NCBI RefSeq assembly: GCF_003382685.1
Contig: NZ_QLVG01000001.1
Span: 62,001-126,000 of the forward strand
Direction of reading: 5' to 3'
DNA: 64,000 nt
From: Halorussus litoreus
GTDB lineage: Archaea; Halobacteriota; Halobacteria; Halobacteriales; Haladaptataceae
Under the pieces are notes generated by a model. That model made no database searches and was not told the DNA's origin. It saw only the letters and a program-made list of their open reading frames with translations. Shown here piece by piece: positions 41,535 through 53,255 of this stretch. How positions within the stretch are numbered: the first letter of the stretch is position 1; each line of letters starts with the position of its first letter. A program made the position numbers and the translations under genes.

Positions 41535-42719
41535 GTGGGTATTCTCGTCAGCGACACAGGCACGCAGCAGGTTCATATCGTTTATTGTCGCGATGCTTGG
41601 GTTGGTGAGCCGGATATTCCGTGGTTGGAACGGATCCTGGACTTCGAGATGTGCGTCATCGGCATCGAAGACGACGGAGAACTCGTTGTTCGGGCTGCAT
41701 CCGAAGACATAGCGGTAGACGAACAGACGCAAGCGATGGACGAAGGGCTCGCTGGCAAGACGTATCGAACCGGAGAGTCGTACGTGATCCACGATACGGC
41801 CTCCGTCGACGAAATCTCGGACGATAGTCCCTATCGGTCGGCGATCAGCATTCCGATCGACGACCGCGGGAACTTCCAGGCTGTCGACACCGAGCCGGAC
41901 GCGTTCGACCAAACGGACCTCGAACTGACCGAACTGCTCGTCTCACACACTTCGGCCGCAACCAAGAACCTCGAACGAACGAAGGAACTCGAACGGAAGA
42001 ACGAACGACTCGAAGAGTTCAGCAGCGTCATCTCACACGACCTCCGGAGCCCACTCAACATCGCCCAGGGAATGATCGGGCTGGCGAAAGAGTCCGGAGA
42101 TCTCTCGCACCTCTCGAAGGCCGAGACGGCACTGGACCGGATGAACGAATTGACCGAGAACCTGTTGACGCTCGCGAAAGAGGGGGAGGTGCTCGACGAC
42201 CGCGAGCCGGTTGCAGTTGCCGACGTGGCCAGACAGGCGTGGTCGACGAGTGCGACCGGTGAGGCGTCCCTCTCGGTTGCGGAGTCGCTCGGGATGGTCT
42301 CGGCCGATCCGTCTCGGTTCCAGACCCTGTTCGAGAACCTGTTCCGGAATGCCGTGGAACACGGTTCCACGAGCAGTCAGCCTACGGCTGACGACGCCGT
42401 CGAGCACAGCTCGACGAGCCCTCGCTCGCACGCTCGCGAGGACGCCGCGGAACACGGCGAATCGGCGGTCACTGTCGAGGTTGGCGGGCTATCGGACGGG
42501 TTCTTCGTCGCGGACGGCGGTCCTGGTATCCCGAACGAACAGCGCCAGCAGTTGAACCGGATGTTCGAACAGCGGTCGCTCCAACTGCACGAGCGCGAGG
42601 GCTTCGGCCTCGTTATCGTCCAACAGATCGTCGAAGCACACGGCTGGGAGATCCGTGTCACGGAGAGTGACTCCGGAGGCGCTCGCTTCGATGTAACGGG
42701 GGTCAGTTTTCTCGAGTAG
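41535..42719 (+). CDS. GAF-domain histidine kinase, possibly 5'-truncated
   Basis: From GTG 41535 the 394-residue protein starts directly in a GAF domain (DFEMCVIGIEDDGELVVRAA through GNFQAV, about 35-120), without the REC or PAS domains usual in relatives. It continues with the phosphoacceptor box SSVISHDLRSPLNIAQG (His about 167), N box LFENLFRNAVEHG (about 268-280), G1 ADGGPGIP and G2 GFGLVIVQQIVEAHGW. Residues about 281-312 are an insert of palindromic origin right after the N box. It is likely a cytosolic sensor kinase. The abrupt start and the neighbouring plasmid block suggest loss of its N-terminus. Confidence 0.85.
   Translation: MGILVSDTGTQQVHIVYCRDAWVGEPDIPWLERILDFEMCVIGIEDDGELVVRAASEDIAVDEQTQAMDEGLAGKTYRTGESYVIHDTASVDEISDDSPYRSAISIPIDDRGNFQAVDTEPDAFDQTDLELTELLVSHTSAATKNLERTKELERKNERLEEFSSVISHDLRSPLNIAQGMIGLAKESGDLSHLSKAETALDRMNELTENLLTLAKEGEVLDDREPVAVADVARQAWSTSATGEASLSVAESLGMVSADPSRFQTLFENLFRNAVEHGSTSSQPTADDAVEHSSTSPRSHAREDAAEHGESAVTVEVGGLSDGFFVADGGPGIPNEQRQQLNRMFEQRSLQLHEREGFGLVIVQQIVEAHGWEIRVTESDSGGARFDVTGVSFLE
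42374..42449 (+). repeat. Palindrome-rich in-frame insert in the kinase N-box region
   Basis: Three palindromes follow each other: GTCAGCC-TAC-GGCTGAC, CGTCGAGC-ACA-GCTCGACG and CCTCGC ... GCGAGG. They encode a peptide in which VEHGSTS, VEHSSTS and AEHGES repeat the native N-box end. The segment STSPRSHAREDAAE resembles the insert in the unrelated gene at 52005. Confidence 0.8.
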
Positions 42720-42721
42720 CG

Positions 42722-42886
42722 ATGGTCGGGGAACCACGGGCACTCGACGAGCGCGGTCGCCTAGTTGCTCGCCACTGCCGGAGTGAGAGCAGTCTGACCG
42801 CACCAGAGATCGACGCGGTTCTCGACACCGACGAGTTGTCCGTCGCTGCGGAACTGGAGTGGTGGGCCGGTGAGTCGTCACCGTAG
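42722..42886 (+). CDS. Small acidic protein downstream of the kinase
   Basis: ATG 42722 follows the kinase stop by two bases and the frame encodes 54 residues (MVGEPRALDERGRLVARH, then APEIDAVLDTDELSVAAELEWW). Its composition and acidic helix are typical of haloarchaeal small proteins. No family is recognised. Tight spacing suggests co-transcription with the kinase. The following 236 bases up to 43122 contain nothing I can name. Confidence 0.5.
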   Translation: MVGEPRALDERGRLVARHCRSESSLTAPEIDAVLDTDELSVAAELEWWAGESSP

Positions 42887-43122
42887 CCTGTGCTCTGCGG
42901 TCGGCGATTTGGGGGGGAAGAAAGGGGCAGGGAACCGAGGCGGCAGGGTACTGGGGATGTGTACCGGTCATGTTTGCTGACACTGTGGGCGGGACTTGTC
43001 GCCATCTCGAAAAGGCAGTCTGAAATACATAGTCTATCCTATAGGTATTTTCGTATACATTAATTGGGGAACCACGCCATGACTCCGACAAGAACTACGC
43101 AGTTTCCGAGAACAAATTCACG

Positions 43123-51461: not shown

Positions 51462-51463
51462 CG

Positions 51464-51709
51464 TCACTCCGTCTTGCGGACGTAGTGCTTGTACACGTCG
51501 CCACCCTCGACCTGATCGAGAAGTTCGACGCCGCCCGTGCTGGCCGCCCAGCCGTCGATGTCGCTCATGCTCCCCGAGTCCGTCGCCAGCACTTCGAGCA
51601 CGTCACCGTCGCCGAGATCGTCGATGGCGTTCTTCGTCTTGACGACTGGCATCGGGCACGATTCTCCCTGCACGTCCAAGGTCTCCGTGATGTCGAATTC
51701 TGCACTCAT
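51464..51709 (-). CDS. tusA: TusA-family sulfur carrier protein
   Basis: I chose ATG 51709 (MSAEFDITETLDVQGE). The 81-residue protein is one TusA domain with the signature TLDVQGESCPMPVVKTKNAI (active Cys in the CPMP motif, about 18) followed by GDVLEVLATDSGS and a final KHYVRKTE. TusA hands persulfide sulfur between enzymes, and is fused or paired with YeeE-type thiosulfate importers in bacteria. It heads the tusA-dsrE operon. An ATTGTGCAAT element lies in its probable 5' leader. Confidence 0.95.
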   Translation of the reverse strand: MSAEFDITETLDVQGESCPMPVVKTKNAIDDLGDGDVLEVLATDSGSMSDIDGWAASTGGVELLDQVEGGDVYKHYVRKTE

Positions 51710-52004
51710 GTTCGATCTGCCCCGTTGTTCTGTATTGGAGCTATTGCACAATATAGGGTCGGCAGTTAAAAACGTGCCGGTTCTTGCATAGGCCGCGAAC
51801 AACTGCGATCCCACACACCTTCCGTCTGGTCCGTCTTCACCAACCTATATTAGTCACGCGAACGCGTTAAATCGGTTATATACCTCTTAGGGGCCGATAA
51901 TCTGGCAGCGGCGCAGTTCTCAGCGTGAATGGTGTCCGATTCTGTATTGTGCAATCCTCGAATTACTATGCAAACCCTTATGGCGAGCCAGCCAGTAGGT
52001 CGGG
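51710..52004. promoter_or_regulatory. Divergent promoter region of tusA and the rhodanese/MBL gene
   Basis: Both sides carry the identical 10-mer ATTGTGCAAT when read toward their gene: complement of 51743-51752 for tusA, and 51945-51954 for the rightward gene. A CACGTTTTTAACTG TATA-like box for tusA lies at 51763-51776, upstream of the element. For the rightward gene GCAAACCCTTATGG (51969-51982) lies downstream of the element and 23-36 bases before ATG 52005. The middle of the region holds no gene. Confidence 0.6.
51742..51753 (-). promoter_or_regulatory. ATTGTGCAAT palindromic element of tusA
   Basis: TATTG-CA-CAATA is a perfect 12-base inverted repeat. Read toward tusA it is identical to the element at 51945. 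It lies about 10-20 bases downstream of the likely TATA box, near the transcription start. Confidence 0.6.
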
Positions 52005-53255
52005 ATGCACACGATGAACGCAGACGACTTCGCGACTCCGGACGTCCCGGTCGAGACGGTGACGCCGGAGGATCTGAAAGCACGAATCGACGCCGGCGAA
52101 GCCGTGACGCTCCTCGACACGCGCATGGAATCGGAGTACGAGGAGTGGCGCATCGACGGCGAGACCGTCGAGTCGATCAACGTCCCGTACTTCGAGTTCC
52201 TCGACGACGAGATCGACGACGAGGTCCTCGCACAGGTCCCCGACGACCGCGAGGTCACCGTCCTGTGCGCGAAGGGTGGATCCAGCGAGTACGTCGCGGG
52301 CGAACTCGCCGAGCGCGGCTACGAGGTGAACCACCTCGAAGACGGCATGAACGGATGGGCGGGCATCTACGAGGCCGTCGAGGTCGAGCGCTACGACGGC
52401 GCGGGGACCCTGCTCCAGTACCAGCGGCCCTCCAGCGGCTGTCTGGGCTACCTCGTCCACGACGACGACGAGGCCGCCATCGTCGACCCGCTGCGGGCGT
52501 TCACCGACCGGTACCTCGACGACGCCGACGACCTCGGCGTCGAGCTGAAATACGCCATCGACACGCACGTTCACGCAGACCACGTCTCGGGCGTCCGCGC
52601 GCTCGCCGACCGCGGCGTCGAGGGCGTGATCCCCGAGGCGGCGGTCGACCGGGGCGTCACCTACGCCGCGGAACGAAGTTCCGCGAGCCCTGCCTCGCAG
52701 GCTCGGCAGGACGCCGACGAGGCGACGCTCGCGGCCGACGGCGACACCTTCTCGGTCGGTGACGCCACCATCGAGACGGTGTTCACGCCCGGCCACACCA
52801 CCGGCATGACCTCGTATCTGATCGACGACAGCCTGCTCGCGACCGGCGACGGGCTGTTCGTCGAGAGCGTTGCCCGGCCCGACCTCGAAGAGGGCGACGA
52901 CGGGGCCCCCGACGCGGCTCGGACGCTCTACCAGTCCCTGCAGGAGCGCGTGCTGACGCTCCCCGACGACACGCTGGTCGGCGGGGCGCACTTCAGCGAC
53001 GCCGCCGTCCCCGCCGCCGACGGCACCTACACGGCTCCTATCGGCCAGCTCCGCGAGGAGATGGCCGCGCTGACGATGGACGAAGACGAGTTCGTCGAGC
53101 TGATCCTCTCGGACATGCCCCCGCGACCCGCCAACTACGAGGACATCATCGCGACGAACCTCGGCCAGCAGTCGGTCGACGACGAGGAGGCGTTCACGCT
53201 CGAACTCGGCCCGAACAACTGCGCCGCGAGCCAGGAGTCGCTCGCGGGTGACTAA
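52005..53255 (+). CDS. Rhodanese/metallo-beta-lactamase fusion (persulfide dioxygenase-like), second copy
   Basis: ATG 52005 lies 36 bases after the start of the promoter box, the same spacing as other genes of the island; ATG 52014 is possible. The 416-residue protein has rhodanese (about 18-115, Cys in VTVLCAKGGSSEYV), then a beta-lactamase domain with THVHADHVSG (about 186-195), FTPGHTTGM and LFVESVARPDLEEGDD. The tail LELGPNNCAA is shared with the enzyme at 49260. Residues about 222-241 (RSSASPASQARQDADE) are an insert from a palindromic element. It probably oxidises persulfide to sulfite and transfers sulfur. The importer genes follow 14 bases later. Confidence 0.92.
   Translation: MHTMNADDFATPDVPVETVTPEDLKARIDAGEAVTLLDTRMESEYEEWRIDGETVESINVPYFEFLDDEIDDEVLAQVPDDREVTVLCAKGGSSEYVAGELAERGYEVNHLEDGMNGWAGIYEAVEVERYDGAGTLLQYQRPSSGCLGYLVHDDDEAAIVDPLRAFTDRYLDDADDLGVELKYAIDTHVHADHVSGVRALADRGVEGVIPEAAVDRGVTYAAERSSASPASQARQDADEATLAADGDTFSVGDATIETVFTPGHTTGMTSYLIDDSLLATGDGLFVESVARPDLEEGDDGAPDAARTLYQSLQERVLTLPDDTLVGGAHFSDAAVPAADGTYTAPIGQLREEMAALTMDEDEFVELILSDMPPRPANYEDIIATNLGQQSVDDEEAFTLELGPNNCAASQESLAGD
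52668..52726 (+). repeat. Palindrome-rich in-frame insert in the rhodanese/MBL gene
   Basis: GCGGAAC-GAA-GTTCCGC (52669-52685) is a perfect inverted repeat with a 3-base loop, followed by nested GCCT-CGC-AGGC and CCTGCC ... GGCAGG. The encoded SASPASQARQDADE resembles STSPRSHAREDAAE of the kinase at 41535. Confidence 0.75.

Follow-up and report, generated by a model that had tools for sequence, protein, structure and literature searches.

Two segments of a 64,000-nucleotide stretch of the Halorussus litoreus genome (contig NZ_QLVG01000001.1, positions 62,001 to 126,000; hereafter the window), one within a histidine kinase gene and the other within the gene of a rhodanese and metallo-beta-lactamase (MBL) protein, are very probably copies of a dispersed, non-autonomous DNA element of the Halobacteriales that consists of two hairpins and conserved linkers. 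Copies of this element are present or absent at precise sites, lie in either orientation and occur in coding, intergenic and tRNA-derived DNA, and those within genes are in frame. An earlier interpretation made from the letters of the window, here called the sequence-only reading, had claimed that the two proteins each carry a related peptide encoded by palindromic DNA. Both peptides and their palindromes were confirmed in the sequence, and the interpretation as a whole is supported with the corrections given below.

Architecture of the window copies

The element follows the plan GCC-hairpin 1-GAGCC-hairpin 2-GAC over 48 bp. The GAF/HisKA/HATPase_c histidine kinase (positions 41535-42719, from ORF and Pfam assignments; all window features lie on the + strand) carries two units 3' of its N box. 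The insert that the sequence-only reading placed after the N box really comprises two adjacent units, the first of which (42351-42395) had gone undescribed. Unit A is a 48-bp element (42396-42443) that together with the following GCC reaches position 42446 and encodes AVEHSSTSPRSHARED; it scored 80.6 bits with a covariance model for which unit A itself was a training sequence, and independent copies of it were found by BLAST. Its palindrome, CGTCGAGC-aca-GCTCGACG, spans 42398-42416. Sequence and fold place hairpin 1 (GTCGAGC-aca-GCTCGAC) at 42399-42415 and hairpin 2 (CTCGC-tcgcacgctc-GCGAG) at 42421-42440, and between them lies the conserved linker GAGCC (42416-42420), in which GAGC is able to pair with the leading GCC with its A bulged. 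Unit B, directly upstream, is 45 bp long and has the same plan with different stems, GCC-GTGGAACacgGTTCCAC-GAGCA-GTCAGCCtacGGCTGAC-GAC; it encodes AVEHGSTSSQPTADD, scored 30.5 bits (E 8e-6), and a hairpin scan located its hairpins at 42353-42371 and 42376-42392.

The rhodanese/MBL protein (52005-53255, from ORF and Pfam assignments) carries one unit in its MBL domain. The palindrome CGCGGAAC-gaa-GTTCCGCG occupies 52667-52685 within an element at 52665-52715, and ortholog alignment delimits a 48-bp insert (52665-52712) that corresponds to residues 221-236, AAERSSASPASQARQD, and is missing from most orthologs. Here the sequence gives hairpin 1 as GCGGAAC-gaa-GTTCCGC (52668-52684), the linker GAGCC at 52685-52689 and hairpin 2 as CTGCC-tcgcaggctc-GGCAG (52690-52709). 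In the AlphaFold model the insert forms a low-confidence loop (~50-60) followed by a short helix, between strands. The gene belongs to a sulfur cassette (window positions 49260-54289) with two rhodanese/MBL genes and TusA-, DsrE- and YeeE/YedE-like genes, and the same cassette is also found on plasmids of relatives.

The two window copies align over 48 bp without a gap, with 35 of 48 positions identical. Identity reaches 21/24 among unpaired bases and 14/24 among stem bases, while the complementarity of the stems is intact in both. Taken alone, the palindromes of the window are weak evidence: it contains 31 hairpins with a stem of at least 7 bp and a loop of 3-5, and third-order Markov sequences give 19-28. 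Because single hairpins are thus near chance density, the weight of the argument rests on the shared plan and its recurrence. A de novo search of the window and 80 loci for linkers after any hairpin of 7 bp or more picked up no signal, as copies are too rare in random DNA.

Empty and filled sites

The sequence-only reading had named conservation of the segments in all orthologs, as native loops, as the result that would overturn it. The rhodanese/MBL segment is not native in this sense, since in most haloarchaeal orthologs RGVTY is directly followed by ADE and the protein is exactly 16 residues shorter. The site is filled by exactly 16 residues in the window protein, several Haloarcula, Halomicrobium mukohataei, Halolamina CBA1230 and Haloterrigena salina. 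In a paralogous MBL subfamily, an insert of 16 residues lies a few residues downstream of the window site, and an upstream site is filled in Halomicrobium, Natrinema and Natronorubrum, making three insertion sites in the MBL family, two of which are occupied together in Halomicrobium mukohataei.

Other proteins give the same picture. Hel308 of genome G010 has a 16-residue antisense insert, and every relative aligned across the site is empty; HMG-CoA reductase of G003 has an exact 16-residue insert relative to both PDB 6hr7 and its relatives; and MetX of G010 contains an insert where G003 has an apparent decayed copy at the same place. Both orientations are represented among the coding copies. 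Further hosts are MutS, CysK, Sir2, a zinc dehydrogenase, the N terminus of MutL, CbiH and an IS605-type TnpB, with orthologous empty sites retrieved for part of them and the MutS and ADH hosts named from Pfam domain matches only. In the TnpB records (L258:1954-3261, L332 and L333), the copy lies at one shared place just before the GVDIG motif; an insertion sequence with such a TnpB could ferry the element. Among kinase paralogs of the H. litoreus genome, the distance from the N box to G1 is 28-30 residues (several without a unit), 45-46 residues (one unit) or 59 residues (two units), and this site is an old hot spot common to many paralogs.

Outside protein genes, an intact tRNA-Pro at locus L168 adjoins a tRNA-Pro fragment interrupted by exactly 48 bp. 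L162, L168 and L314 each have a partial tRNA-Pro(CGG) beside an intact tRNA-Pro, with the element inside or adjacent, as at a reused integration site.

Short direct repeats containing CGC or GCC(G) flank the filled sites, and empty relatives have a single copy of them. At the rhodanese site the repeat is ACGCCG (left copy 52663-52668, right copy 52711-52716, from ortholog comparison); it is GCCGT in MetX, GCCGTC/CCCGTC in Hel308 and CGC in the tRNA fragment. Judging from the sequences, these repeats could be either duplications of the target site or sequence matching the target that the element brought with it. The proposal that the left arm of hairpin 1 is always native target was ruled out at the rhodanese site, where the arm is missing in empty orthologs; in the kinases, in CbiH and at the upstream rhodanese site the arm may be native target.

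On a rhodanese tree of 111 rows, built with the insert columns left out, the filled state needs seven changes, and a single clade of filled rows was rejected (p-AU 6e-73, with rows grouped by trait and not by tree). The same-site pattern therefore reflects either repeated insertion at one nucleotide, several precise losses or short-tract recombination.

Covariation of the stems

In an alignment of 112 distinct copies, standard pairs occupy 96.3% of stem cells compared with 72.7% after shuffling, and 306 double changes were counted compared with 89.5; when the partner was slid by 1-3 columns, pairing fell below 50%. Silent positions were examined in 43 distinct, ungapped kinase-type copies, all of which encode a peptide of the form A(V/A)EH... 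The third codon positions of Val and Ser (Val3-Ser3) are Watson-Crick paired in 41 of the 43, against 21 after shuffling, with the states C-G (26), G-C (13) and T-A (2), and Glu3-Gly3 is Watson-Crick paired in 38. Each of these two pairs changed state ~10 times on the kinase tree. Mismatched copies are rare, and the switch from C-G to G-C has no route through a G-U intermediate, which suggests, as far as sequences can tell, that the two stem arms change in coordination; common ancestry of the copies or transfer between genes is a possible alternative source of the paired changes. In the fold, the leading GCC pairs with GAGC of the linker, leaving the A bulged, and position 3 covaries with position 21 (45/51 paired compared with 36.8 after shuffling). 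The base pairing is conserved independently of the protein.

Distribution of the family

A covariance model built from six coding copies found 65 matches at E<=0.1 and 80 at E<=1 in the H. litoreus genome, and matches in 46 of 59 related genomes and 18 of 27 genera. Among 197 genomes across the phylum, all matches at E<=1e-5 fell inside the Halobacteriales, with none at this threshold in the ~160 genomes outside the order. Searches of phage records and viral contigs yielded no copy, and no Rfam family matches the element. With a 63-nt query from the kinase, BLAST recovered copies in the same genome at 6e-21, 4e-20 and 1e-7; the copies elsewhere in that genome comprise two more in kinases and several intergenic ones.

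The copies sampled in H. litoreus are mostly intergenic and have longer stems. The intergenic ones are ~50-51 bp long and arranged in arrays whose neighbouring units follow the common plan GCC-hairpin 1-GARCC-hairpin 2-GAC and differ in stem sequence, whereas coding copies are mostly 48 bp. Kinases are by far the commonest of the sampled coding hosts, and tandem units in them follow one another head to tail every 48 bp. Longer mosaic arrays of hairpin units were also seen (L187, L188 and other intergenic copies of this genome), some with unit types beyond the reach of the model. A tandem array lies within a HAD-type-hydrolase-like reading frame of G014 (L291:1001-1147), and a PhoU/TrkA_C protein of H. 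litoreus (L018:1500-1583) combines the family's hairpin 1 with an unrelated 10-bp hairpin 2.

The sequence-only reading had proposed that the DNA and not the protein was copied. This holds, because many unrelated genes as well as intergenic DNA contain the element, and it lies in both orientations. The two segments are members of a large dispersed family, and direct copying between the two loci is not shown.

Discussion

As a rival explanation, it could be supposed that the segments are native, acidic and Ser-rich surface loops of halophilic proteins that converged in composition; the inserts do lie in loop regions, the rhodanese insert has the low model confidence given above, and single hairpins are near chance density in the window. 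This explanation is refuted by the empty sites and retains next to no probability, given orthologs shorter by exactly 16 residues, silent positions that covary, and non-coding and antisense copies. A repeat born in the kinases by tandem duplication at the N box (NAVEH), and spread to other genes by recombination instead of transposition, would account for the kinases as leading coding hosts, for their arrays at 48-bp spacing, for the match of the AVEH half of the element with native NAVEH codons, and for the NAVE also present at the junction in CbiH. It seems unlikely, in view of the intergenic majority with longer stems among the sampled copies of H. litoreus and of the antisense GTCGGAC-type inserts in Hel308, HMG-CoA reductase, MetX and ADH, which are without kinase sequence.

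IS200/IS605 elements use guide pairing, and the ability of GAGC to pair with the junction GCC recalls it. Together with the conserved feet of the hairpins and the IS605-type TnpB with its copy at a single place in three records, this brings to mind a repetitive extragenic palindrome (REP) mobilised by an IS200/IS605-type Y1 tyrosine transposase (RAYT). A Y1_Tnp gene (PF01797), by which a GTAG REP/RAYT system would be recognized, is absent from the H. litoreus genome and from six other copy-rich genomes (G001, G010, G016, G035, G049 and G052), which argues against this route, and some Y1-rich genomes have few copies. We consider such an origin improbable, and a Y1 (IS200/RAYT-type) transposase is unlikely to be the mover. 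There is likewise only a slim chance that the family is a structured RNA or regulatory DNA signal under selection with its coding copies as spill-over: the strong covariation and the many intergenic copies in arrays would fit, while the lack of an Rfam family at the element, the occurrence of both orientations within coding genes and the sporadic presence between close species do not.

Several points weigh against a mobile DNA element. No insertion event was directly observed, and all comparisons are above strain level. The direct repeats could be pre-existing target homology instead of duplications, and the same-site rhodanese inserts could be due to precise losses or to recombination of short tracts and not to repeated insertion. 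The 112-copy alignment had been fitted to the structure of the covariance model, which makes the ungapped 43-copy test the stronger one; the 43 kinase copies are themselves related to one another, and some of the kinase copies could go back to a single old insertion, multiplied by duplication and gene conversion. Finally, a mobilising enzyme was not found, the candidate checked being the Y1 transposase.

A dispersed mobile element remains the reading that we favour. It would move as DNA and insert at GCC-type sites, leaving a direct repeat of ~3-6 bp. Because its length is a multiple of three and the frames used are without stops, coding copies would survive in exposed surface loops, where they appear to be tolerated as 16 additional residues with a high content of Ser, Ala, Asp, Gly or Gln. 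The stems may stay palindromic as their sequence changes because the folded strand is under selection or because one arm serves as template for the other. We tentatively entertain a more specific picture, a possible new class of archaeal mobile hairpin that would locate its target by pairing its conserved GAGC foot with the junction GCC, which re-enters the same nucleotide of a given gene across lineages without a resident Y1 enzyme, and whose stems are renewed by arm copying so that silent codon positions change in pairs.

Among known systems, the Rickettsia palindromic elements (RPEs; Ogata et al. 2000, 2002) are described as 105-146 bp long (PMC2229807). The sequence-only reading had noted a resemblance to them, and in behaviour it stands: both are palindromic DNA lying in frame in many unrelated genes as well as outside genes, and present or absent between orthologs. 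Membership does not follow, since by their description RPEs are ~100-150 bp with one long stem-loop, unlike the 48-51-bp Halobacteriales element with its two hairpins and conserved linkers. CGTC-tagged REPs, which include RPE-4 and RPE-6, are single 8-9-bp stems starting with A/T, with loops of 4-5, a CCA-like tail and head-to-head dimers (PMC3733652). They too are short palindromes, sometimes within ORFs and without an associated transposase (PMC3733652). On the reverse strand of the Halobacteriales element, CGTC precedes hairpin 2 in 87 of 112 copies; it reads GACG on the strand given here, and the last base of this GACG may come from the target-like GCC. The present element, however, has two different G/C-rich hairpins; hairpin 1 is without the tag and starts with a G-C pair in 110 of 112 copies, stems are 5 or 7-8 bp with loops of 2-3 or ~10, and units run head to tail at 48-bp spacing instead of head to head.

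In archaea, palindromic elements with coding potential are on record for Methanocaldococcus jannaschii (Suyama et al. 2005, cited in PMC2229807); judged by that brief description and not by sequence, they are likewise archaeal repeats fused into protein genes. Haloquadratum walsbyi has SMRs of ~80-110 bp with terminal inverted repeats, which strike other mobile elements, and PATEs related to IS605-type transposons (PMC3119063). These PATE, SMR and miniature inverted-repeat transposable element (MITE) sequences resemble the present family as transposase-free haloarchaeal repeats, some with palindromes or a target preference; the element is shorter and built differently, and 48-bp coding units within genes are undescribed in the accessible sections of that account (PMC3119063). 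A classical MITE shares terminal inverted repeats with a resident transposon, whereas no long ones are visible in the element.

Double-hairpin elements of fungal mitochondrial DNA consist of two adjacent hairpins whose fold is kept as the sequence drifts, and the Halobacteriales element seems to parallel them in all of this. In literature outside subscription journals we found no published description of the 48-bp element, and a prior description elsewhere is possible. In the light of these comparisons, the element seems to be a hitherto undescribed archaeal analogue of the palindromes that invade Rickettsia genes.

Protein-coding palindromes form a small and odd class, known so far chiefly from intracellular bacteria. 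Haloarchaea, which include genetically tractable members, harbour the present family in abundance; it strikes conserved genes, those of HMG-CoA reductase, Hel308 and MetX, and returns to identical sites, so that insertion, loss and the effect on the host protein are directly testable. The element also accounts for the puzzling repeats of 15-16 residues in haloarchaeal histidine kinases, and it cautions that such inserts should not be taken for adaptive loops.

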